Positions 5,722 through 25,394 of a stretch of 25,941 bases of DNA are shown here, one piece after another. A model generated the notes under the pieces. It was given only the letters and a program-made list of their open reading frames with translations. It made no database searches and was not told where the DNA came from. The position numbers and the translations under genes were made by a program. Source of the stretch: a virus; the IMG/VR virus record IMGVR_UViG_3300046752_000087, positions 1-25,941 of that record, one strand, 5' to 3'. The stretch's first letter is position 1; the number at the start of each line of letters is the position of its first letter.

Positions 5722-6407
5722 TTAATGTATTTGTTTTTGAGTAACCACTTCCTTGTGAGAGGAGTGGGTGAGTAATGTTCCCACATAGGAGTAGATGATG
5801 CACAGACTTTAAGTGCTTGTGCAGTCATACCCTCTGTGTGCCCTGCCCAAAACGCTTCCTTTTCCCAAGGGATTGCCGAGGGTTGTTGGAAATACGTTTT
5901 CTCTGCCATATTCTGCCACATTTTAGGAACTTGGTCCTCTGGGTGAATAATAGCGATCAATGAATTGTTAAGGGTACCTGCCATACAATCCTGAGCAGCG
6001 TGCCAACCTTCGTGCCTGACTACTGCCATAAACACATTAGGACGACTGACGTGTGCCTCATTTAGATAGAAATGATTACTCACAGTATGGTAAACACCTC
6101 TATGTCCAACAGGAAAATACTTTGGACTTGCAATATAAACGTTAATTCCTAATTTGTCAAATGATCTTGATAGACTATTAAACTCTTCTCTAACTGTATT
6201 GAAGTTTTGGTTAGAAAAAATCTTTTGTACATCGTCCGTATTACGGACTCTCTTTACATCTTCAGTACACTCCTGTAGGAGCATACATCCCATAGCATCA
6301 TTTGTAAACCACCCTTTAGTAATTTTACCTTCAATAGGTTTTGGTAAAGGGTTTGCTGCTACAGGTAAACTCAAACTCAACAATGTCGCCAATAGGACAT
6401 TACGCAT
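5718..6407 (-). CDS. Secreted HExxH metallopeptidase-like protein (229 aa)
   Basis: Residues 1-18 form a signal peptide (MRNVLLATLLSLSLPVAA) with an Ala-Ala cleavage site. The zinc-peptidase motif HEGWH is at 132-136 within a helix (VVRHEGWHAAQD), and WEKEAFWAG at 181-189 could supply the third Glu ligand, as in gluzincins. Four Cys (41, 47, 141, 202) could form disulfides after export. The arrangement predicts a periplasmic zinc peptidase or peptidoglycan peptidase. It sits among tail genes, between the 2OG oxygenase and a zinc ribbon, so it could be a virion or lysis factor. The substrate is unknown. A non-catalytic relic is possible, but all expected residues are present. Confidence 0.68.
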   Translation of the reverse strand: MRNVLLATLLSLSLPVAANPLPKPIEGKITKGWFTNDAMGCMLLQECTEDVKRVRNTDDVQKIFSNQNFNTVREEFNSLSRSFDKLGINVYIASPKYFPVGHRGVYHTVSNHFYLNEAHVSRPNVFMAVVRHEGWHAAQDCMAGTLNNSLIAIIHPEDQVPKMWQNMAEKTYFQQPSAIPWEKEAFWAGHTEGMTAQALKVCASSTPMWEHYSPTPLTRKWLLKNKYIK

Positions 6408-6993
6408 ACGAAATCCATCCAGTTACAATTAATTTTTCTTCGTTTGGTGCAGGGTTACCGTGATGAATATGAGTCCAATCTACAGGCCACAGCAGGGTTA
6501 AACCCTTTTCTGGTTGAATCTGTAGGTCTTGATGAACCCATTGTGTATCACCGCCTTCCTCTACGGTGTTTAGGTATGTCATCCATACCAGATGTCTGAA
6601 AGAGGTGGTCTTATTGGAACCTACTCTTTCACAGTGTGGTTGTGTGAATGCTTGCCCTGGTTCATACTTCTGGATATTGAATGGTTCGATAACCTCCAAA
6701 TCCGCCATTTTTGCCCAGGGATATTGATCGACGTACAATTGAATGCACGCTTGTACCTCATCCAAATAATTTGTAATTCTCGGATCTTTGATCCAAGATG
6801 GAACAGACATATCCGTGGAGTTCTTGATCAATGGATCAGTTCCACCACTATATTCACCAGGGACTTTGGCAAGATAATCACAGGTGTTGTAAAAATCTAC
6901 TACACCGTCAATGATTTCTTCTTTTATTTTGCCACCTGCAATAAACGATTGTACTGCTGCCATAATAATAGATGATAGGTTATTAGTCTTCAT
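6400..6993 (-). CDS. 2OG-Fe(II) oxygenase, prolyl-4-hydroxylase-like (197 aa)
   Basis: Members of this superfamily use iron and 2-oxoglutarate to hydroxylate proteins or small molecules, and several are common in cyanophages. The iron ligands are visible as H120-C-E122 (an HxE variant of the usual HxD) and H175 in WTHIHHGNP; K187 in EEKLIVTGW is placed to bind 2-oxoglutarate. The sheet between them (RHLVWMTYLNTVEEGGDTQW) is typical. The frame is open further upstream, but that part overlaps the previous gene. I chose ATG 6991-6993, and ATG 6961-6963 (MAAVQSF) is equally possible. The substrate is unknown; a tail protein or host protein is a guess from context. Confidence 0.82.
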   Translation of the reverse strand: MKTNNLSSIIMAAVQSFIAGGKIKEEIIDGVVDFYNTCDYLAKVPGEYSGGTDPLIKNSTDMSVPSWIKDPRITNYLDEVQACIQLYVDQYPWAKMADLEVIEPFNIQKYEPGQAFTQPHCERVGSNKTTSFRHLVWMTYLNTVEEGGDTQWVHQDLQIQPEKGLTLLWPVDWTHIHHGNPAPNEEKLIVTGWISYA

Positions 6994-7210
6994 AAACCAG
7001 ACATTCTGGTTCTGAAGGGTTTTGATCACAATATAGTTCGAGAGCAGTAGGATCGTGATGATCTCCTTCCTCAATTTCTTTTTTGTGATGATCGACGTAA
7101 TCTTCCAACTCGTGAAGTTCGCCTTCGATGTGCCTACGAGTCTGAGGACTTGTTGTAGGATTATCCAAGATTTCTTTATCGTGTTGGATGTGGTCTTCTA
7201 GTGATTTCAT
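6983..7210 (-). CDS. Charged hypothetical protein (75 aa)
   Basis: ATG at 7208-7210 follows a strong ribosome binding site (AAAGGAGA). The protein is helical and very rich in His, Asp, Glu and Lys (MKSLEDHIQHDKEIL, EGELHELEDYVDHHKKEIEEGDHHD), probably a coiled coil. It ends with a distinct tail, LYCDQNPSEPECLVYED, that has two Cys and looks like an independently conserved element. It lies between the hub gene and the 2OG oxygenase, so a structural accessory role is possible. Not recognised by family. Confidence 0.68.
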   Translation of the reverse strand: MKSLEDHIQHDKEILDNPTTSPQTRRHIEGELHELEDYVDHHKKEIEEGDHHDPTALELYCDQNPSEPECLVYED

Positions 7211-7220
7211 TAGGTCTCCT

Positions 7221-8588
7221 TTATGAGGTTACACTATCTTTAGATAGTTGTAAATGGGTAGTTAATCCAGTAGGACTATAGTCGTGTTTTAGTCCTACGA
7301 CAAGATAACGTCCCGAATATACAGGATCCAATACAGTTCTTTCCTCTACGTTAGAAGATGCAGGAATTTTACATTGAATTACCATACCGACAGCCAATGA
7401 TACATTACCTGGGATGGTTATGTCAAGTCTTATGGAGTTAAGTAACTGCCATCGAGAATACGAGTATGAACTCGCTGCAATGGTGTCATTATCCATATTT
7501 CCTGCAGTATCGGTTCCATCTTGAGACGTTTTCGCATTCTTCATTCCAGGTAGAGCACGGATTTTAACTCTGGTAGGTTTTTTCTCATCAAAGTATGCTT
7601 CCTTGATCTTTGGAAAAGGAAAAGCATCATTAAGTGTTTCTGCCTGTCCAAATACCTCAATTAATGATTGAGTCCTTGGCGGTGAGATTGAACCAGAGGG
7701 TCCACTCTTTCCACTCCCTGCTGTAGGGAGATTACCTGAAGTGAGTGCAGGTGCTTTAACACCGATAACGGTATTTACATATGCACCAGTTCGCATTTTT
7801 TCCAGATGGTTGCCCTGATCTGGATAATTCATACTTTCGATACTGTAAGCATTATACTCGGCATTGCCGACATTTGCTTGTTCATATGTGAACGTCGGGA
7901 CACTTCCCTTGTTCATCAATTCTCCCTTGGTAAGGGTATCTATAGTATTAAAATAGAACCCATTCTTGTTTTCAAAGAACAAATATCCTGCCTTGTTGTT
8001 TTCAGATGAAACAATTTTATCAGAGATATATGCAATAACATCAAATGGTCTCCAAGAGGGAGATATAAAATTGAAGTTACCTTTAGAACCTTCGTATGAA
8101 TACTTCCGTCCAGATGACTTCAAAAACTTGTTGACAATTTCTTTTACGTGACTTGATCCAGTCTTATATCTAAATGCTTTAAATACTCTATTTGTTTCAT
8201 TGTTATATGCTTCTGGTGAAACTGTATATATCACATATGATTGTGCTCTTTCAGATTTAGTTACCGCACCAATCTTAAAAATACGTTGTCTGACGATTAG
8301 AGGTTGATCTGGAGCACTATCTGACTCCATTTCTAGTTGAATAAATTCATTACCAGTTAGATCCGAAATCAAGTCAACAGTATCCATTACTGCAATCTCC
8401 ATTCTGACCGAAGGAGAATCGATAGACTCAATATAATTAAATCCAGGGCAGATACCTCTAATATCTACTGCCTTTCCCCCTTCAGGTGACAGTTCCTGAA
8501 TCTTTTCTGATGGAACATAGTCATCTGCCAAATACAGATTAAACTGTTTAATTTTATACCCTTTTGCTTGGTACGTTGATTCAGACAT
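7221..8588 (-). CDS. Baseplate hub protein, gp27-like (455 aa)
   Basis: The protein looks like the hub trimer component that carries the gp5 spike. It is beta-rich with an early section on a bounded property (NYIESIDSPSVRMEIAVMD, residues about 52-70), a middle YVIYTVSPEAYNNETNRVF section, and a C-terminal barrel (GRYLVVGLKHDYSPTGLTTHLQL) of the kind that ends phage hub and gpD-like proteins. T4 gp27 is 391 residues, so the size fits. Its gene follows the tape-measure pair and shares an operon with gp5, matching the 51-27-28-29 cluster of T4 in content. Sequence similarity to gp27 itself is not obvious to me, so this is a context-plus-fold call. Its ATG overlaps the preceding TGA by one base. 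Confidence 0.65.
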   Translation of the reverse strand: MSESTYQAKGYKIKQFNLYLADDYVPSEKIQELSPEGGKAVDIRGICPGFNYIESIDSPSVRMEIAVMDTVDLISDLTGNEFIQLEMESDSAPDQPLIVRQRIFKIGAVTKSERAQSYVIYTVSPEAYNNETNRVFKAFRYKTGSSHVKEIVNKFLKSSGRKYSYEGSKGNFNFISPSWRPFDVIAYISDKIVSSENNKAGYLFFENKNGFYFNTIDTLTKGELMNKGSVPTFTYEQANVGNAEYNAYSIESMNYPDQGNHLEKMRTGAYVNTVIGVKAPALTSGNLPTAGSGKSGPSGSISPPRTQSLIEVFGQAETLNDAFPFPKIKEAYFDEKKPTRVKIRALPGMKNAKTSQDGTDTAGNMDNDTIAASSYSYSRWQLLNSIRLDITIPGNVSLAVGMVIQCKIPASSNVEERTVLDPVYSGRYLVVGLKHDYSPTGLTTHLQLSKDSVTS

Positions 8589-10612
8589 CAGAACAGATTA
8601 CTCAATACACTAGCGGATTCAGCAACTCTACCAAACCTGCTAGACAAGAAGTCATTCGCTGGATTGGGATTACCTTTTTGTACAACAGGGGTACCGCCAC
8701 CACCACCTGAACTAGTTTTAGCAGTAGGTAGTACGATTGCTTCAGCAACCATAGTCTCTATACTAGAATTTAGGTCACTAGTCTTGACCTTAGTAGCAAT
8801 ACTCTTGATATTTGCAACTGTTTTATTAATAATATTACCAGTTCTTGCTTTAAGTGCAGGTGGCATAATATCAACAACATTATTCACAACACCACCAATA
8901 TTCTGTGCAGCAGTATTGATATGTGGTTGCATAAAGTTCATTGCTGCCTGTGCACCTGGGGGTAGAGTTGCCGATGCCACTGCTGAACCTATACCTTTCA
9001 ACATACCACCAAATGAATATCCTTTATATTGTCCGTAGTTTGATGGGGGTAGTGATGAAACTGCTGTTGACTTTTTAGATCCGAAATCAAAAGGAACTGT
9101 ACCACCCATAGAAAATCCAGGGACTTTATATCCTGCAGAAGTTGCTTGTTGAATTCTTCTACTAGTAAGTCCAGGGTCTTTCTTAGTATGGGGGGTATTA
9201 AAGGGAACAACAAAACCCCCACGAGATCTTTGTGCCACATATTCAGTTCCGTGTCCGATAAAGGATACGGACTTACCACCATCGAGTGATACTGGGTAAC
9301 CTGATTGTGGTCCAGAGATCCAACCACCATCCGACTTCTCAGGTAGAACTGCAGTCTGTGGAACGATTCCACCTATGGACATTTCTGGCGTATCTTCGTT
9401 ATTTCCTTTCTCTGCCGCGTCCATTCTCTCTTGCACCCCAGGAATCATCTTGAGGAAAAATGTCAACCCTTCGATCATTTTGATCAGTGGGAAGAATGCC
9501 GCTTTACCCATAAATTCGGCAAACGACAGTAATTTAGGTAGATGTGGTTTGATCGCATCTACTATCATCTGCAATGGAGGACCCACTGCTTTGAAAAGTT
9601 CTGTAATTGCCTCTCTTAAAGGTTTAAAGAACTCATCAAGTGTCTGCATCATAAAGTCAAATGCTTCCTTAATAGTATTAAAGAAATTACCAACTATAGG
9701 TCCAAGGAACTTGCCTGCCTCTTTTCCTAGTAATCCACCAACAGCGTTACCAATCAAACCACCGATAGGACCTGCAATCTGGTTGCCGATCATACCAAGT
9801 GCCATACCGCCACCTGCAGCACCAATACCAGCACCTCTCGCCGCTGCCATCCTGTCTTCTTCAACACCGTCATAGTTCTGTGATACATCCTGATATGCTG
9901 CAGCACCCTGTGCACCTGCTAGTGCTAACTGACCTAGAGGGTTGCCACCAAGGAATTTACCCAGATTCAGGATACCTTTACCGATAGTACCAATAATACT
10001 ACCAAATGCTTTGACAGTTCCGATAGGATTCTTCAGGAATGATAAACCTGCTAATACAGCAAGTCCTGCACCAAGCATTTTTGCTGCTGCTTTGAATCTG
10101 GTCCATCCATCACTATCTTCGCCAAATAACTCGCCATATTTCTGTTTCCACCAATTTATCGTGTTCCCAATCCACTTAAATAACCCACTAACCATCTCAA
10201 ACGCTTTTACTATCTTCTCTCGGTTCTCTTTCTTAGATAACCAATTGAGTGCACCAAATATCAAGAGGTTTTTAAGGAATTTCATCAAATATTCCATAAA
10301 TCCCAAACCAGCGCCCTTTGTGGCACTGATTGCACTATCTGCAGTATCTCCTTTTGCTTCTATCGCTGCTTCTCTTTGTCTATCTGCTTGAAGAGCAGCA
10401 AAGCGGCGCTGCTCATCCATAAGTCTTTGTTGTGCTACTTGGTTCTTCTTCAGTGCAAGACCAATACTATTTACAGTCGCTCCTAGGGAATTAATTGCTT
10501 TAACTGTCGGGACGAAACCTGTGGTGGTAAATGTTTTTTTACCGACAGTCATCTGTGCACCATCTGCCTCTTTAGGTGGTGTGACGTATTTGTATAGTCT
10601 TATCTTACTCAT
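8588..10612 (-). CDS. Tape-measure-like tail protein 2 (674 aa)
   Basis: Likely lies in the tail core and contributes to tail length or hub structure. It has an N-terminal domain (residues 35-95, with INSLGATVNSIG and a charged coiled coil), a hydrophobic part ending in LNWLSKKENREKI (122-134), a long Gly/Ala-rich hydrophobic centre (about 160-320) typical of tape measures, and a C-terminal part with GGWISGPQSGYPVSLDGG starting near residue 429 and FIGHGTEYVA, which resembles a repeat-like module of cyanophage structural proteins. It is clearly paralogous to the larger protein encoded immediately upstream, but lacks that protein's His/Cys domain. The T4 counterpart would be gp29 by position. 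Antisense frames over the Gly-rich centre are not genes. Confidence 0.7.
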   Translation of the reverse strand: MSKIRLYKYVTPPKEADGAQMTVGKKTFTTTGFVPTVKAINSLGATVNSIGLALKKNQVAQQRLMDEQRRFAALQADRQREAAIEAKGDTADSAISATKGAGLGFMEYLMKFLKNLLIFGALNWLSKKENREKIVKAFEMVSGLFKWIGNTINWWKQKYGELFGEDSDGWTRFKAAAKMLGAGLAVLAGLSFLKNPIGTVKAFGSIIGTIGKGILNLGKFLGGNPLGQLALAGAQGAAAYQDVSQNYDGVEEDRMAAARGAGIGAAGGGMALGMIGNQIAGPIGGLIGNAVGGLLGKEAGKFLGPIVGNFFNTIKEAFDFMMQTLDEFFKPLREAITELFKAVGPPLQMIVDAIKPHLPKLLSFAEFMGKAAFFPLIKMIEGLTFFLKMIPGVQERMDAAEKGNNEDTPEMSIGGIVPQTAVLPEKSDGGWISGPQSGYPVSLDGGKSVSFIGHGTEYVAQRSRGGFVVPFNTPHTKKDPGLTSRRIQQATSAGYKVPGFSMGGTVPFDFGSKKSTAVSSLPPSNYGQYKGYSFGGMLKGIGSAVASATLPPGAQAAMNFMQPHINTAAQNIGGVVNNVVDIMPPALKARTGNIINKTVANIKSIATKVKTSDLNSSIETMVAEAIVLPTAKTSSGGGGGTPVVQKGNPNPANDFLSSRFGRVAESASVLSNLF

Positions 10613-10615
10613 AGT

Positions 10616-13114
10616 TTATGAATTTAAACCTGTTAGAGAGAAATCACCAGACTTAGTGACCGTTTGTACTCCTATCACACCAGTCTCTGAGACAACAGGT
10701 TTAATAATTGGTTGGAATACTACCATTGAAGATCCATCTCCAGAACTTAGTTCGGTATCTTGTTGTTGAGATGACCGTGTTAATTCACTAGTCTTCGTAC
10801 TATTTAGATCTGTTGGTCTGATTTCTCTATTGTCAGGACTAGGTGAAGGTCCAGTGCTCAACTGTTTTGCACCTTTAGCGATAGAAACTCTTATAGTTTC
10901 TGGCATCACCTGTTTATATTTTTTCACAAAATCCTTATCTTTATTATTACCTGCAGTACCACCAAGAGTCACACCAACACAACCTGCAGTACCATTGTCA
11001 TTAATATCATTATGAAGTTGAATTGCAGATCTCTTACCAATAACACCACCCATATTGTTAATAAAGGTAGACCAAGTTCCAATACCACTTACATTTGAGT
11101 GTTCTGCAAATCCAACAAGAGGATACTTACCATCTGGTAAAGGATAAAGAGCACCAGATACGTTTCTTCTTTGTGATTGTGATGTGCCTGCTGTACTATA
11201 TTGACCACTAATCGCTTCCCACTGACCAATCTTTCTATTCTTACCATCAAACAGACGTAGCACACCAGTAGCACCATCACCGTGTCCTTGGAAATCTATA
11301 CGTCCTCCTTTTGGTACAGGACTATCATCGGTACCGATACCTTTCTTCGATACAAATGGATCATCGACCATAGAAGTTTGAGGTTGTGCCATCTCAAACT
11401 GTGCCAATGCTGCCTTCGCACTCGCTGCTTTTTCTTCAGCGAACGGTATTAAAACATTCTCCCAGTGCTTCGCTTTTTCTTCGTTGGTTGAACCTAAACC
11501 ATTCCAGTGTCCATTCATAATGGTCATCCCTGGAGCACCATTTGATGTCTTGAACACGCCATCAACCCCAAACCAGGCAGATCTACTTCCACCTTCACCA
11601 TTTGCAATTCTTTCTCTTATTACTTTAAGTTCTGCCTTCAATCTCTTCACATCATAGTCTTCATTCTCTACCTGTGCCATTGCCTTTTGACCATCACTAC
11701 CAATGACTCTGGTTAAAGTATTCCCTGTACCTTTAATAAATCCTCCAACATTATTAATTGCCCATATTGCTTTCTCAAATATCCAGACAATACTATCTAA
11801 CGCTGCCTTAGCAGCAGGACCAATAACATAGTCCATCAAACCTTGGAAAGCAGCACCTGCAATAGGTGCAATAAACTCAAGCACCATATCAAGGACGTGC
11901 TTCAAAGGTTCAAACAAATCTTGTATTGCTGTTGCAACTGGTTTTACAAATGCATTAAACATTGGTAAAGCAATATTCTTAAAGTAATCTCCAAGAGGTT
12001 TCAGAACAGGTTCTATTGCCTCTCCAAGGAACGCTCCAATCTTATCTCCAAAGAACCCACCTAGAACACCACCCACAATAGGTGCGAATGGTCCTAGGAC
12101 AGGTGTTAACAGTGCAGTGACCGCAACTGTACCAATAGTGGCACCGATACCTCCACCTGCTGCTACATTCATTTTGTCACCAGCAGCGAGTCTGGATCCA
12201 AATGAGAGTGCACCTGCAAATATACCTCCACCAGCACCAGATCGCATAAAGCGACCCATACCTGTCATACCTTTAAATCCTGCCCTTCCTGCAATACGAC
12301 CACCGAATCTTGACTTGGATGCATTGCCACCAAATCTTCTAGCGTATCTCTTTCGTGCTGCCTTTGATGCGTTACCAGACCTGATACCTTTTGCTACTCT
12401 TTTTGGTTTTTGCTTTAAGAAATTATTTTGATTTACTTTCTTTGCGTTTTTTGTTGCCTTGGTACGATTAACTTTAAATAATTTTGATAGTTTACCAATA
12501 TCTCCTGCCAACTTCCAGGGCATTAAAATCCTACTTGCTACCTTGAGCGCGGCGATGCCCCCTACAACCTTCAACGCTCTCATTAAGTAACTGTCGTTCC
12601 CATCTGGATCGAACAGTCCATCATATATCATACCGAATCCCCACGATCCAACCTTCCAGACCGTGCCCAACCACTTACCGATCCATTCGAACCCAGTTCG
12701 AATTGACTCTTTGTTTTCCTTCTTAGACAACCAGTCTAATGCAAAGAATGTACCAAGAGTTGCCGCAAATTTAATCAGTGGTTCTATTAATGGTGATAGG
12801 AACCCAAAGATACCACTCCCACCCTTTGAATATCCTCTTGATTTCGACTCTCTTTCTATCTCTTCAGTTGCTTTCTTCTCAATCTTACTCTCTCTCGCCC
12901 TGTCCTGTGCTAGAGATCTTCTCCCTTGCACAGCGTACGCTGCATCAAGTCGTGCTTGGTGTCCACTTGTGAGAATCTTACCAACATCGGTGACAGTATG
13001 TCCCAATCGGTTGACCGCTAGGGTCATTGACATTGCAGGATCCTTCTTGTCCATACCAGAGGTAGTGACAGGAATAAAGTTTCTTATTGATAACTTGGGT
13101 GCTGCTTTTGCCAT
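10616..13114 (-). CDS. Tape-measure-like tail protein 1 with L,D-transpeptidase-like domain (832 aa)
   Basis: The N-terminal half has VNRLGHTVTDVG (residues 34-45), a charged coiled coil (65-95), LDWLSKKENKESI (127-139) and a very basic stretch (about 215-285), then a long Gly/Ala-rich hydrophobic centre like a tape measure. Residues about 604-735 look different: LRLFDGKNRKIGQWEAISG, then PLPDGKYPLVG, then IQLHNDINDNGTAGCVGV with H701 and C712. This His...G-[ST]-A-G-C layout is that of L,D-transpeptidase/DUF2778-like proteins, which act on peptidoglycan peptides. The gene starts one base after the previous stop (TAATG), directly after the gp26 frameshift region. Tail length control plus cell wall action at entry is the inferred role. 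Confidence 0.72.
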   Translation of the reverse strand: MAKAAPKLSIRNFIPVTTSGMDKKDPAMSMTLAVNRLGHTVTDVGKILTSGHQARLDAAYAVQGRRSLAQDRARESKIEKKATEEIERESKSRGYSKGGSGIFGFLSPLIEPLIKFAATLGTFFALDWLSKKENKESIRTGFEWIGKWLGTVWKVGSWGFGMIYDGLFDPDGNDSYLMRALKVVGGIAALKVASRILMPWKLAGDIGKLSKLFKVNRTKATKNAKKVNQNNFLKQKPKRVAKGIRSGNASKAARKRYARRFGGNASKSRFGGRIAGRAGFKGMTGMGRFMRSGAGGGIFAGALSFGSRLAAGDKMNVAAGGGIGATIGTVAVTALLTPVLGPFAPIVGGVLGGFFGDKIGAFLGEAIEPVLKPLGDYFKNIALPMFNAFVKPVATAIQDLFEPLKHVLDMVLEFIAPIAGAAFQGLMDYVIGPAAKAALDSIVWIFEKAIWAINNVGGFIKGTGNTLTRVIGSDGQKAMAQVENEDYDVKRLKAELKVIRERIANGEGGSRSAWFGVDGVFKTSNGAPGMTIMNGHWNGLGSTNEEKAKHWENVLIPFAEEKAASAKAALAQFEMAQPQTSMVDDPFVSKKGIGTDDSPVPKGGRIDFQGHGDGATGVLRLFDGKNRKIGQWEAISGQYSTAGTSQSQRRNVSGALYPLPDGKYPLVGFAEHSNVSGIGTWSTFINNMGGVIGKRSAIQLHNDINDNGTAGCVGVTLGGTAGNNKDKDFVKKYKQVMPETIRVSIAKGAKQLSTGPSPSPDNREIRPTDLNSTKTSELTRSSQQQDTELSSGDGSSMVVFQPIIKPVVSETGVIGVQTVTKSGDFSLTGLNS
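10801..10808 (-). promoter_or_regulatory. Candidate late-promoter-like element TCTAAATA inside tape-measure gene 1
   Basis: TCTAAATA on the minus strand, 189 bases upstream of the tape-measure 2 start. The 12-base string CGTACTATTTAG (10796-10807, plus-strand reading) is repeated exactly at 19195-19206 before gp32. It is inside coding sequence, so chance is a real alternative. Confidence 0.22.
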
Positions 13115-13287
13115 TAAAGTGACTGGTGTTGTCCCGCCTGTTGGCGTTGTCTTGCCTCTTCCTCACGTAAGTAACGCATCAAGAGGTTCACATAAACATC
13201 CCTTTCCCACGGCATCATATTTTCAAGTTCTGTGAGACTGTACTTATGATGTTGCATCAAAGCAAAGTTGGTCTCATAGATGTTCAT
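13114..13287 (-). CDS. Small tail-assembly frame, possible frameshift extension of gp26 (57 aa from its ATG)
   Basis: From ATG 13285-13287 the frame encodes 57 residues: MNIYETNFALMQHHKYSLTE at the start, then ENMMPWERDVYVNLLMRYL and a charged EEEARQRQQ tail. The frame is also open upstream of that ATG through 13319, and no ribosome binding site precedes the ATG. The helix with 'S-L-x-E-L-x-x-M-x-x-W-E-R' resembles the second part of tail chaperones (gpT type) that is reached by -1 frameshift just before a tape-measure gene. In T4 the gene at this position is 51. It could be made as a separate protein, as a 299-residue gp26 fusion, or both. Confidence 0.65.
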   Translation of the reverse strand: MNIYETNFALMQHHKYSLTELENMMPWERDVYVNLLMRYLREEEARQRQQAGQHQSL

Positions 13288-13307
13288 CAACGAATCGTGC
13301 GCTAGGG

Positions 13308-14012
13308 CTACGCGAAAAAACTTGCTAGTCCTTCGAGTACAATTGGTGATGTAACTTCAGTCTTCGGATTGAAAACCTCAATAGTATGGGAGAGTTTAGG
13401 CATAGTTTCAAAGAACTTCTGAACTAAACCGAACTGTTGTGAGTTCATATTTTCATAGAATTCAACTAGTTCTTTAGTTGTGTGATCTTTTCCTTCATAT
13501 ACATCCTCACCTTCAGCAATACTTTCAGTACAACTAGCAGCAAGTTTGAATAGATCGTCTACACCTGGGTTGTCAACGAGATTATTCTTCACAAACACAT
13601 CCAAGGATGGATATTGCATAGTGATAGTGACATCATCGCTGACTTTAAGAATGGTGGTATGTTCCTTAGGAATTATTACCTTCACATCATCAAGGTTGAC
13701 TTCAACATCAACTTGAGTCTTCTCATCATCAGGGCAAGTGATCTTAAATTCACTCACCTCACCAACAGATTTACCACGGATTCTAAGAAAGAGATATTCA
13801 ATATCAAATGTAGCAAGGTCATCAAGTTTCTTGAGGTTGGTACAATTCTTGATAATCTCTTTCACCGCTTTGATCATCTCTTTATTATCCTGTGTTTCCA
13901 TAGCAAGATAAAGAAGTTTCTCTTCTCTCACTAGGAATGGTCTATAGGTAACCTTTTGACCACGAGGAAGCACGCATTCATAATCTGGAATGCTCAGTTT
14001 GGGTAAAGGCAT
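13308..14012 (-). CDS. 26: Baseplate hub assembly protein gp26-like / tail chaperone (234 aa)
   Basis: In T4 gp26 is needed to assemble the baseplate hub. The family pattern is visible: G-Q-K-V-T-Y-R-P-F-L-V-R-E-E-K-L-L (residues 19-35), a helix ending in KNCTNL, then FDIEYLFLRIRGKSVGE, then a strand pair with CPDDEKTQVDVEVNLDDVKV. Most family members bind zinc with several Cys in that last part; here only one Cys remains. T4 gp26 is 208 residues. The gene ends in a slippery T TTT TTC four codons before its TAG, and precedes the tape-measure genes, so it probably acts as the G-like partner of a G/GT chaperone pair. Confidence 0.8.
   Translation of the reverse strand: MPLPKLSIPDYECVLPRGQKVTYRPFLVREEKLLYLAMETQDNKEMIKAVKEIIKNCTNLKKLDDLATFDIEYLFLRIRGKSVGEVSEFKITCPDDEKTQVDVEVNLDDVKVIIPKEHTTILKVSDDVTITMQYPSLDVFVKNNLVDNPGVDDLFKLAASCTESIAEGEDVYEGKDHTTKELVEFYENMNSQQFGLVQKFFETMPKLSHTIEVFNPKTEVTSPIVLEGLASFFA
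13314..13320 (-). promoter_or_regulatory. Predicted -1 programmed ribosomal frameshift site T TTT TTC
   Basis: On the minus strand the sequence reads GCA AGT TTT TTC GCG TAG in the gp26 frame, so the heptamer T TTT TTC fits X XXY YYZ exactly, in phase. After a -1 slip the reading becomes TTT TTT CGC GTA and continues without a stop into the 57-residue frame, giving a 299-residue protein. The gp26 stop comes two codons after the heptamer. I see no strong downstream hairpin; a weak pairing of GCG with CGC across 13298-13313 is the most I can find. Confidence 0.7.
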
Positions 14013-14038
14013 CGTGTAAAATTACAATTCAGTAAAAC

Positions 14039-14046
14039 TATTTAGA
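14039..14046 (-). promoter_or_regulatory. Candidate late-promoter-like element TCTAAATA before gp26
   Basis: TCTAAATA on the minus strand covers the gp54 stop codon and ends 27 bases before the gp26 ATG. It differs by one base from TATAAATA. It could start a separate gp26/tape-measure transcript. Overlap with a stop codon makes chance possible. Confidence 0.3.
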
Positions 14047-14767
14047 CCCCGACGTAGGTCCTGAAATCATTATCGTCGAGAACACTATCTATATTGTTTA
14101 TAACCTTTTCGTTGGTCCAACCACCTGCCTTCTCTTGTTTTGTAGTAAATCTATAACGCTCAAACTTAAACTGTACATCTAATCTCATCACTTCTGAATT
14201 ACTGTTGCCGAAGGTCATTGTACCTAGGTTGAATGGATATGCTCCATTGAATCTCCATATACCAACTGCTTTATTTAAACGTGTTTGATATTTTTGTCCT
14301 TTCTTCACGGTCTGCACGATAAAGTTAGATCCTCTCTCCCATTTCCTTACAATAATGTCACAAATATAATCATCATAGAAACTGACTCTGTTCTCACCAT
14401 CAGGTGCAATAGAATTCATCCAAGTCTCAAAGAAATTTCTATGCCACTGGTTCTTTGTCACTAAGAATGACACTGCTAGTTCATTAGGTGTCTGTCCTGT
14501 TACATATGATCTTTGAAGACCAAAGTTCTGAGTGTCTCCAGTCGTCAAGTTTCTTGAAGGGATAGTAACTTGATCAGCAAAATAATTTACAGCGTCATAA
14601 TATTCTCTACCATATGCAATCGTCCCACCACCATTAAGTGCTGCAGATCCCAAGACACCAGGGAATCCAATCTCTACAGAGTAAAGATTACCACGGGAGG
14701 GTTCCCACGCTCCCTTAGAAACGAGGTCTGTGAATGATCTAAATGAATTGGGTGCTGCGTATGACAT
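14042..14767 (-). CDS. 54: Baseplate-tail tube initiator gp54-like (241 aa)
   Basis: gp54 caps the baseplate and starts tail tube polymerisation in T4. The protein has the tube-like beta architecture: RGNLYSVEIGFPG near the start, QVTIPSRNL, NELAVSFLVTKNQWHRNFFETWMN, then SFYDDYICDIIVRKW, and MRLDVQFKFERYRF before the C-terminus. This is the pattern shared by gp19 and gp54 type proteins. It is shorter than T4 gp54 (320). An in-frame ATG 33 codons upstream lies deep in the previous gene; I use ATG 14765-14767 (MSYAAPNSFR), which overlaps the upstream TGA by one base. gp48, its partner, is encoded divergently nearby. Confidence 0.75.
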   Translation of the reverse strand: MSYAAPNSFRSFTDLVSKGAWEPSRGNLYSVEIGFPGVLGSAALNGGGTIAYGREYYDAVNYFADQVTIPSRNLTTGDTQNFGLQRSYVTGQTPNELAVSFLVTKNQWHRNFFETWMNSIAPDGENRVSFYDDYICDIIVRKWERGSNFIVQTVKKGQKYQTRLNKAVGIWRFNGAYPFNLGTMTFGNSNSEVMRLDVQFKFERYRFTTKQEKAGGWTNEKVINNIDSVLDDNDFRTYVGV

Positions 14768-15222
14768 CAGAGTTTCTTTAATACTAACGACGTTGGTACG
14801 GATATGTTTCTTCCGTTGACAGTGGTTACAAATTCTTCGGAGGGAATCAAACCAATATCTGCCCACTCAGAGTTTTCAATGCTGTAATAGGGTGATAAAA
14901 CATTACTTCGCAAGTATTTATGCAGAGTAACAGGAGGTGGTGACGGAGTGAACCCTGAGACCCGTGCTTGAGGTGGTAGATAGTGTACATTAGCACCCCA
15001 AAAGTGGTTCGTTGACTCACCTATGACATACACCAAAGGATATTTGTCCCAGAACTGATACTTCTCTGCATACTCTGCTGCATACTGGAAAGTACATACT
15101 CCTCCCACAGCAGGACCATCTATACCACGACCTGATAGGTAGAAGAACAATTGACTCCTCCACCAAGAAGGTGCCTGTGCTCTATTGTTTGCTAGATCTT
15201 TTAGATCTTGATAGACGCTCAT
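14767..15222 (-). CDS. Conserved-looking structural-type protein, unassigned (151 aa)
   Basis: I cannot name the family. The protein begins MSVYQDLKDLANNRAQAPSWWRSQ (a helical, basic start), and has a central YPLVYVIGEST block followed by WGANVHYLPPQAR (residues about 62-87). This Y-P-L-V-x-V-I...G-A-N-x-H-Y-L pattern looks like one I associate with phage tail and baseplate accessory proteins. The C-terminal half has NVLSPYYSIENSEWADIGLIPSEEF. Its position between gp4 and gp54 fits a tail or head-tail assembly role. Both ends overlap neighbours, so translation is coupled. Confidence 0.6.
   Translation of the reverse strand: MSVYQDLKDLANNRAQAPSWWRSQLFFYLSGRGIDGPAVGGVCTFQYAAEYAEKYQFWDKYPLVYVIGESTNHFWGANVHYLPPQARVSGFTPSPPPVTLHKYLRSNVLSPYYSIENSEWADIGLIPSEEFVTTVNGRNISVPTSLVLKKL
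14915..14922 (-). promoter_or_regulatory. Possible late promoter CATAAATA upstream of gp54
   Basis: CATAAATA on the minus strand fits an NATAAATA late consensus, 148 bases upstream of the gp54 ATG and inside the 151-residue gene. It could give extra late transcripts for gp54 and the tail genes beyond. It is in coding sequence and is not supported by other elements. Confidence 0.3.
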
Positions 15223-15653
15223 ACTTTGAGTTCTTTTTCTGTGAGTATAATAAATTTCATCTTACGATCTGCACAATACTCACGTGCTGCCTTCCACTTC
15301 GCCTGATTGACTCCGTACGTGGCAATCTCTGTCAATAATCTCTTAGTCTTCCTACCTTTTTTAGGTGGAAGAGTTTGTGCCTTGGGTTTTACCTCCACTA
15401 TATATTTAGTAGTACCAGAGGAAGTTCTTCCTTTGATGTAGAAGTCTGGAAAATATCTGTGTATTCTATTGTCAATAGGTGAGATATATGGAATGATTAT
15501 CTCCTCTGAACCCCATTCCATTACGTTTGCATTCTTATCGCACCATACCATTAATTTACGTTCCCACAAACTCCTATAAATAATATTCGTAGGGTCACCT
15601 TTGTATTTTCCTGGGTAACTAGGTCTGAACCTTCCAGAATAACTTCGCTGCAT
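15219..15653 (-). CDS. 4: Head completion protein gp4-like, TnsA/PD-(D/E)XK nuclease fold (144 aa)
   Basis: gp4 completes T4 heads before tail joining and is related in fold to TnsA-type endonucleases. The visible pattern is R-S-L-W-E-R-K (E31), W-x-S-E-E-I-I-I-P-Y, then HRYFPDFYI (D70), and VEVKP (E87, K89), which together give the E...PD...E-x-K catalytic set. The remaining part is basic and helical (KWKAAREYCADRKMKF). Size matches T4 gp4 (150). The ATG at 15651-15653 is directly back to back with the gp48 ATG (CATATG), so its promoter must lie within gp48. No TATTTATA is found there; the nearest AT-rich site is around 15880. Confidence 0.83.
   Translation of the reverse strand: MQRSYSGRFRPSYPGKYKGDPTNIIYRSLWERKLMVWCDKNANVMEWGSEEIIIPYISPIDNRIHRYFPDFYIKGRTSSGTTKYIVEVKPKAQTLPPKKGRKTKRLLTEIATYGVNQAKWKAAREYCADRKMKFIILTEKELKV
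15575..15582 (+). promoter_or_regulatory. T4-type late promoter TATAAATA for gp48-gp53
   Basis: A perfect TATAAATA on the plus strand, inside the oppositely transcribed gp4 gene, 71 bases upstream of the gp48 ATG. It is the only full match on the plus strand that I found and fits the only plus-strand operon. Late transcription would need phage sigma factor gp55 and co-activator gp33; a gp33 candidate is encoded at 19541-19786. Confidence 0.65.
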
Positions 15654-25309: not shown

Positions 25310-25394
25310 CGGAAAAGGTGGGATTCGAACCCACGGATGCCTTCACATCGTTGGTTTTCAAGACCAATGCCATCAACCACTCGACCACTTTTCC
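25310..25394 (-). tRNA. tRNA-Ser (anticodon TGA)
   Basis: A complete cloverleaf on the minus strand: acceptor GGAAAAG with CTTTTCC, anticodon stem TTGGT/ACCAA around CTTGAAA (anticodon TGA), long variable arm with GATG/CATC as in serine tRNAs, T arm GTGGG-TTCGAAT-CCCAC. The discriminator base is G, as expected for tRNA-Ser. CCA is not encoded. It reads UCA and probably UCN codons; gp53's long serine run would be a heavy user of serine tRNAs. Confidence 0.93.

Follow-up and report, generated by a model that had tools for sequence, protein, structure and literature searches.

INTRODUCTION

T4-like cyanophages are abundant marine viruses. Vladimirov, Gautam and Davidson (Virology 2022) reportedly assigned T4 genes 26 and 51 as chaperones and found frameshifting in several T4-like groups. 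As far as the cited passages go, the TAC-N genes of T4-like phages are known to contain poly-T slippery sites (PMC12846349), and in some T4-like phages a short gene and a fused long gene are present instead (PMC10274946). By these passages the frameshift idea is already published for T4-like phages, so the locus described here is a further instance of it; the details of its stimulators are possibly new.

In lambda, as proposed for the present locus, there is a short chaperone and a -1-frameshifted long one (G and GT), and G is described as binding the tape measure and T the tail tube protein (PMC5009743, relevant passage). For T4, gp51 is stated to be absent from the particle, and the presence of gp26 in the hub to be disputed (PMC3004832, relevant passage). 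A 2010 comparison gives the length of cyanophage gp51 as about 20% of that of other gp51 proteins and matches it only to the C-terminal region of T4 gp51 (PMC3037559, relevant passage). A frameshift would explain why the short cyanophage protein matches only that end. Among the titles and abstract openings listed by literature searches (up to 20 papers of longer lists), no report of this site in cyanophages was found.

Here we describe a locus of a T4-like marine phage that very probably encodes its tail assembly chaperones, as a G/GT pair made by a -1 frameshift.

RESULTS

The window, that is, the whole stretch of DNA analyzed, is the complete 25,941-base virus record IMGVR_UViG_3300046752_000087. 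Family and profile matches identified T4-like baseplate and tail genes in it. When positions 12000-15500 were compared with a phage collection by megablast, the sole match was Synechococcus phage S-WAM1 (two records), with 75% identity over 283 bases; S-WAM1 also had the closest gp26 protein among the matches listed (63.8%). A tRNA-Ser gene (anticodon tga; 25310-25394, minus strand) was the only tRNA found in the window, and Rfam at gathering thresholds returned nothing besides it. A 224-residue protein encoded among the tail genes (6400-7074, minus strand) matched the 2OG-Fe(II) oxygenase family phrog_61. The features of the locus are listed in Table 1.

Table 1. Coordinates of the putative chaperone locus and its neighbors in the window
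Feature	Position	Strand	Basis or remark
Tail tube protein gene	14042..14821	-	PF23849, phrog_45; immediately upstream of gp26
gp26, putative short form (G, TAC-N), 234 aa	13308..14012	-	PF12322 / phrog_150
Shine-Dalgarno-like GAAGGA, candidate 5' stimulator	13329..13334	-	eight bases upstream of heptamer
Slippery heptamer T_TTT_TTC, in gp26 phase	13314..13320	-	sequence; conserved
gp26 stop TAG	13308..13310	-	one sense codon (GCG) after heptamer
-1 frame that a slip would reach, 'gp51' / phrog_634 segment (putative T, TAC-C)	13114..13314	-	66 codons + TAA
Whole putative G/GT unit, predicted 299-residue fusion by -1 shift at 13320..13314	13114..14012	-	
832-aa gene after the -1 frame	10616..13114	-	ATG 13114..13112 shares one base with TAA 13116..13114

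The original prediction placed an in-phase slippery heptamer near the end of gp26, followed by an open -1 frame. Inspection of the minus strand (...GAA GGA CTA GCA AGT TTT TTC GCG TAG CCC...) confirmed the heptamer just before GCG TAG, and it is the only in-phase X_XXY_YYZ motif in gp26. The -1 frame has no interruption between a stop that begins at 13359 and its own TAA. It extends for 66 codons past the slip rather than the 57 first given, a figure that counts from the ATG at 13287. The predicted length of the fusion, 299 residues (233 + 66), was correct. Of 13,960 random -1 frames within gp26, 106 stayed open over 55 codons.

The frame had also been said to end just before the tape measure gene. 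Its end does overlap the next ATG, and the identity of the 832-residue product of that gene is weakly matched: its E values against the tape measure families phrog_1535 and phrog_3336 were 7e-4 and 4.5e-3, and its stronger matches were to phrogs of unknown function and to 'endolysin' phrogs. An NCBIfam search of five proteins, including this one, gave no matches. It is probably the tape measure protein, an assignment that these matches support weakly. The adjoining 832- and 674-residue proteins (10616-13114 and 8588-10612, both minus strand) match the 'endolysin' phrogs 790 and 1200, and more weakly tape measure families, which suggests tape-measure-like proteins with enzyme domains.

Conservation of the site was examined in 205 sequences, comprising the window and 204 loci (79 of 80 in a first set, 105 in further sets and 20 from named phages). 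This scored set includes near-identical copies and repeats of one phage (e.g., L085 and L169) and omits L074, in which no stop lies within the contig. An in-phase run of six T's near the end of gp26 was present in 204 of the 205, as TTTTTTC in 191, TTTTTTT in 11 and TTTTTTA in 2; one of the TTTTTTA sequences is that of Rhizobium phage I1_18, 34 bases before the stop. The single miss was Vibrio phage D509. Past the run, the -1 frame of the relatives continues through the gp51 segment.

Codon choice at the site was assessed in a nonredundant set of 81 sequences, selected by shared 12-mers. Three of these lack a terminal Phe-Phe pair (XG4 and I1_18, which have the in-phase run, and D509, which does not) and were left out of the count. 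Terminal Phe-Phe pairs were coded xxT TTT TTY in 78 of 78 sequences, against 27.9 expected from the codon usage of each gene, although a formal probability would overstate the case because the sequences are related. By comparison, only 3 of 86 other Phe-Phe pairs of the same genes fitted this pattern. The second terminal Phe codon was TTC in 68 of the 78, with 31.1 expected.

Past the slip, the -1 frame was 55 to 70 codons long (median, 62) in 77 untruncated nonredundant sequences. Over its first 18 codons, mismatches at the three codon positions of the -1 frame were 0.43, 0.32 and 0.61 (77 sequences); I1_18 and D509 were left out here and in the scan for 16S complementarity described below, and the mismatch count also omits the truncated L118 and L163. 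By this measure the -1 frame is evolving as coding sequence over these codons, and this holds as well for sequences in which the stretch lacks an ATG.

Both segments are homologous to the T4 gp26/gp51 families (PF12322, phrog_150 and phrog_634). gp26 matched PF12322 (E 5e-69) and phrog_150. The downstream segment matched phrog_634, annotated as hub assembly catalyst, with an E value of 3e-25 over positions 65-119 of 121, and also gave a weak match (E 6e-4) to the C-terminal end of phrog_150, whose profile has room for both parts.

The original prediction described T4 genes 26 and 51 as separate. They are two genes, but they are divergent, and T4 gp51 is a full-length long form rather than a small protein: it consists of PF12322 over residues 1-201 plus the gp51 domain, while T4 gp26 is PF12322 alone. 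When compared with a profile of the fusion (built without L118, L163, L198, L199 and L203), T4 gp51 aligned in one stretch across the junction, over profile positions 24-283. T4 gp26 aligned over 10-238, and its end, ...GLKEFFELL, falls at the Phe-Phe of the slip site. Thus, T4 has two genes where the present locus has one slip site. Aeromonas phage 31 and Proteus phage phiP4-3 have the same divergent arrangement as T4, and their gp51 proteins aligned across the junction in one of two stretches. On these alignments, T4, Aeromonas phage 31 and Proteus phage phiP4-3 encode the short and long forms as two genes. In RB43, both genes are on one strand; its gp51-like protein gave no match to the fusion profile, and the neighbor of that protein matched it weakly.

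The structure of gp26 was predicted with AlphaFold2 from 40 sequences (pLDDT 88.5). The best VIA-align matches of the model were 3fgx (Z 7.7), the HK97 tail assembly chaperone 2ob9 (Z 7.2) and 3klu/YqbN (Z 6.8), with the next at 4.6; all three cover gp26 residues 1-93 or less. We take 3fgx and 3klu to be chaperone relatives. The 2ob9 match, in the second row, had an rmsd of 4.2 over 82 residues. All three Z values are below 8, a range that can be reached by proteins sharing no more than a common arrangement. Foldseek alone gave no match to the model at E <= 0.001 (2ob9 ranked 8, E 2.3), and a search of the gp26 profile against the sequences of solved structures gave one chance-level row, a kinase (E 0.087). 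The predicted fold of gp26 bears some resemblance to that of the HK97 tail assembly chaperone.

Candidate stimulators were found on both sides of the site in relatives. Upstream, most relatives carry GAGGG 8 to 9 bases before the heptamer, of which the GAAGGA of the window is a weaker version. Complementarity to the 16S tail peaked sharply for 8-mers that begin 15 bases upstream of the heptamer, at a mean of -7.2 kcal/mol. The mean for the upstream stretch was -7.4, compared with -5.5 in synonymous shuffles (mean rank 0.33, n=80) and -2.3 in other intervals of gp26. Glu227 was coded GAG in 49 of 63 sequences (20.7 expected); its GAG fraction of 0.78 was the highest among 14 conserved Glu columns (0.15-0.59 in the others). 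Codon choice across the relatives, on these comparisons, is such that it favors an upstream Shine-Dalgarno-like element, and GAAGGA may help the slip in the phage of the window.

Downstream, the 65 bases after the heptamer folded better than shuffles, with a mean z of -1.45 and 34% of sequences below -2 (n=77), versus a mean z of +0.30 to -0.68 and 0-15% below -2 at 14 other offsets. Strong hairpins starting five to seven bases after the heptamer were predicted in P-SSM2, S-WAM1, Milchi and IG49, and their sequences differ. S-WAM1 and a relative have a very stable predicted hairpin right after the slip site (z -6.6 and -5.5; L082 3172-3261 and L075 2175-2264), which was not found in the related L073 and L077. 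A hairpin was also predicted in the P-SSM2-like group, where RNAalifold gave 0 of 10 pairs changed on both sides; in a 13-pair version, a single pair showed changes on both sides, namely in 2 sequences, and that pair was not formed in 17 of 48. Since these pairs hardly vary, covariation lends the hairpin weak support. In the window itself, three tests of the downstream RNA detected no stable structure (z 0.03, -0.82 and 0.88), and alignment A2 of its own group gave no consensus pairs downstream.

Absence of the heptamer was seen in one distant lineage. After D509 was noticed as an exception, three further sequences (L211-L213) were retrieved, which stand outside the 205. In D509 and K452 (Vibrio) and in maane and Ds5CZ (Ackermannviridae), a gp51-like -1 frame is kept, and the site reads CTT TTC, CTT TTT or ATT TTC. 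The ends of gp26 that lack the heptamer are those of L198, L211, L212 and L213. An ATG overlapping the stop is present in D509, K452 and Ds5CZ and absent in maane. Relatives with a broken heptamer and both frames intact, which would count against the original prediction, therefore exist in this Vibrio/Ackermannviridae lineage only, and the claim is limited to the other sequences.

These exceptions bear on whether gp51 could instead be an independent small product that arises from reinitiation or translational coupling downstream of the gp26 stop, with the heptamer incidental. gp51 is annotated as its own gene in public records, and three of the four heptamer-free phages have the overlapping ATG. 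Start codons of the -1 frame were therefore analyzed in 80 nonredundant sequences (D509 omitted; GTG and TTG not counted). The first ATG lies at codon index 3 in 32 of the 80, mostly in the P-SSM2 group, and overlaps the gp26 stop as TAATG in TCU-VP04-AIR2 and S-CRM01 and as TGATG in Mendera; in these phages and the P-SSM2 group, reinitiation could also yield gp51. However, a first ATG no farther along than index 10 and a Shine-Dalgarno duplex at least as strong as -4.5 kcal/mol occurred together in only 2 of 80 sequences. In 18 of the 80, the frame lacks an ATG ahead of index 18-19, and in three the 30 codons checked contain none at all. The window has its first ATG in this frame at index 9, with a duplex energy of +0.3 kcal/mol, which bears out the earlier statement that the ATG at 13287 has no ribosome binding site. 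Of the 20 nonredundant sequences in its own group, 3 have their first ATG at index 4, 9 at index 8-9 and 8 at index 19. The index-19 ATG falls inside the most conserved stretch, and 3 of the 8 sequences (L049, L060 and L066) have a duplex of -6.3 to -6.9 there. A missing Shine-Dalgarno sequence at gp51 is not decisive, since the starts of gp26 itself are also weak (median duplex, -0.5; 23% of 79 at or below -4.5). A separate gp51 would, in addition, leave the fixed Phe codons and the single-chain T4 gp51 unexplained, and we consider this origin of the protein very improbable.

A frame change could also arise in the mRNA, by slippage of RNA polymerase on the T run in a fraction of transcripts. 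Homopolymer runs are capable of this, and seven or more T's occur in 11 of the 205 sequences. Polymerase slippage would not, however, disfavor longer runs, whereas most sequences stop at six T's and continue with C, as the excess of TTC indicates; this pattern and the fixed in-phase position fit tandem tRNA slippage, and the probability left to the polymerase is very small. The same constraints bear on coincidence, in which a slippery-looking heptamer would simply lie beside an overlapping frame. In-phase X_XXY_YYZ motifs are common in the window, in other genes as well, but chance would have to account for the near-universal T run, the uniform Phe-Phe coding, the GAG bias at Glu227, the colinearity of T4 gp51 and the TTC bias together, and its likelihood is negligible.

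DISCUSSION

Collectively, the conservation and codon constraint of the site, the lack of a well-placed gp51 start in the window, the colinearity of T4 gp51 and the predicted fold support the G/GT chaperone reading that was originally proposed. Slippage itself, its rate and the chaperone role are inferences. In the proposed model, most ribosomes would stop at the gp26 TAG and release the short form (G, 234 residues), while a minority would slip back one base on T_TTT_TTC as the two tRNA-Phe re-pair with TTT TTT. The slipped ribosomes would read the -1 frame and make the long form of 299 residues (GT). Its C-terminal 66 residues correspond to what other annotations call 'gp51, hub assembly catalyst'. 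If the pair works like lambda G and GT, the tape measure protein would be coated by many copies of the short form and few of the long one, and the extra domain of the long form would recruit the tail tube protein.

Under this model, a core gene of T4-like cyanophages would have to be reannotated, since the short 'gp51' is most likely the final part of a fusion and not a truncated protein. None of 21 annotated records with this arrangement that were examined carries a joined gp26-gp51 feature, and the S-WAM1, S-CAM1 and maane records list no gene for the gp51 segment.

The lambda slippery site is a different heptamer, and the model would tie T4-like tail assembly to the lambda G/GT system. The T4 pair is alike in that gp26 and gp51 both belong to PF12322 and gp51 has the same C-terminal domain, and it differs in being two divergent genes, which allows frameshifting to be compared with a two-gene solution as the source of the short and long forms. 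In the tail assembly chaperone locus of Vandenendeviridae/Pakpunavirus (phage Adele), a conserved poly-T -1 site likewise precedes the tape measure gene; it was proposed on grounds of its conservation, belongs to another phage family and has the motif GTTTTT (PMC12846349, relevant passage).

The signal itself resembles that of E. coli dnaX in its homopolymeric X_XXY_YYZ site and, in about a third of the relatives, in a well-folding downstream region. The dnaX site has a Shine-Dalgarno-like element upstream, as does the present one. It differs in that no hairpin is detectable in the window and in that the predicted shift here adds a domain, whereas the dnaX frameshift is described as giving a shorter product. 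We tentatively suggest, as a reading with somewhat less than even chances, that the marine T4-like site is a composite dnaX-like signal, with a codon-selected GAGGG, a slip site held at six T's without growing longer, and downstream hairpins gained and lost by lineage. If T-even phages rely on separate short and long genes and the Ackermannviridae-like group on another route, the pair would be made in at least three ways.
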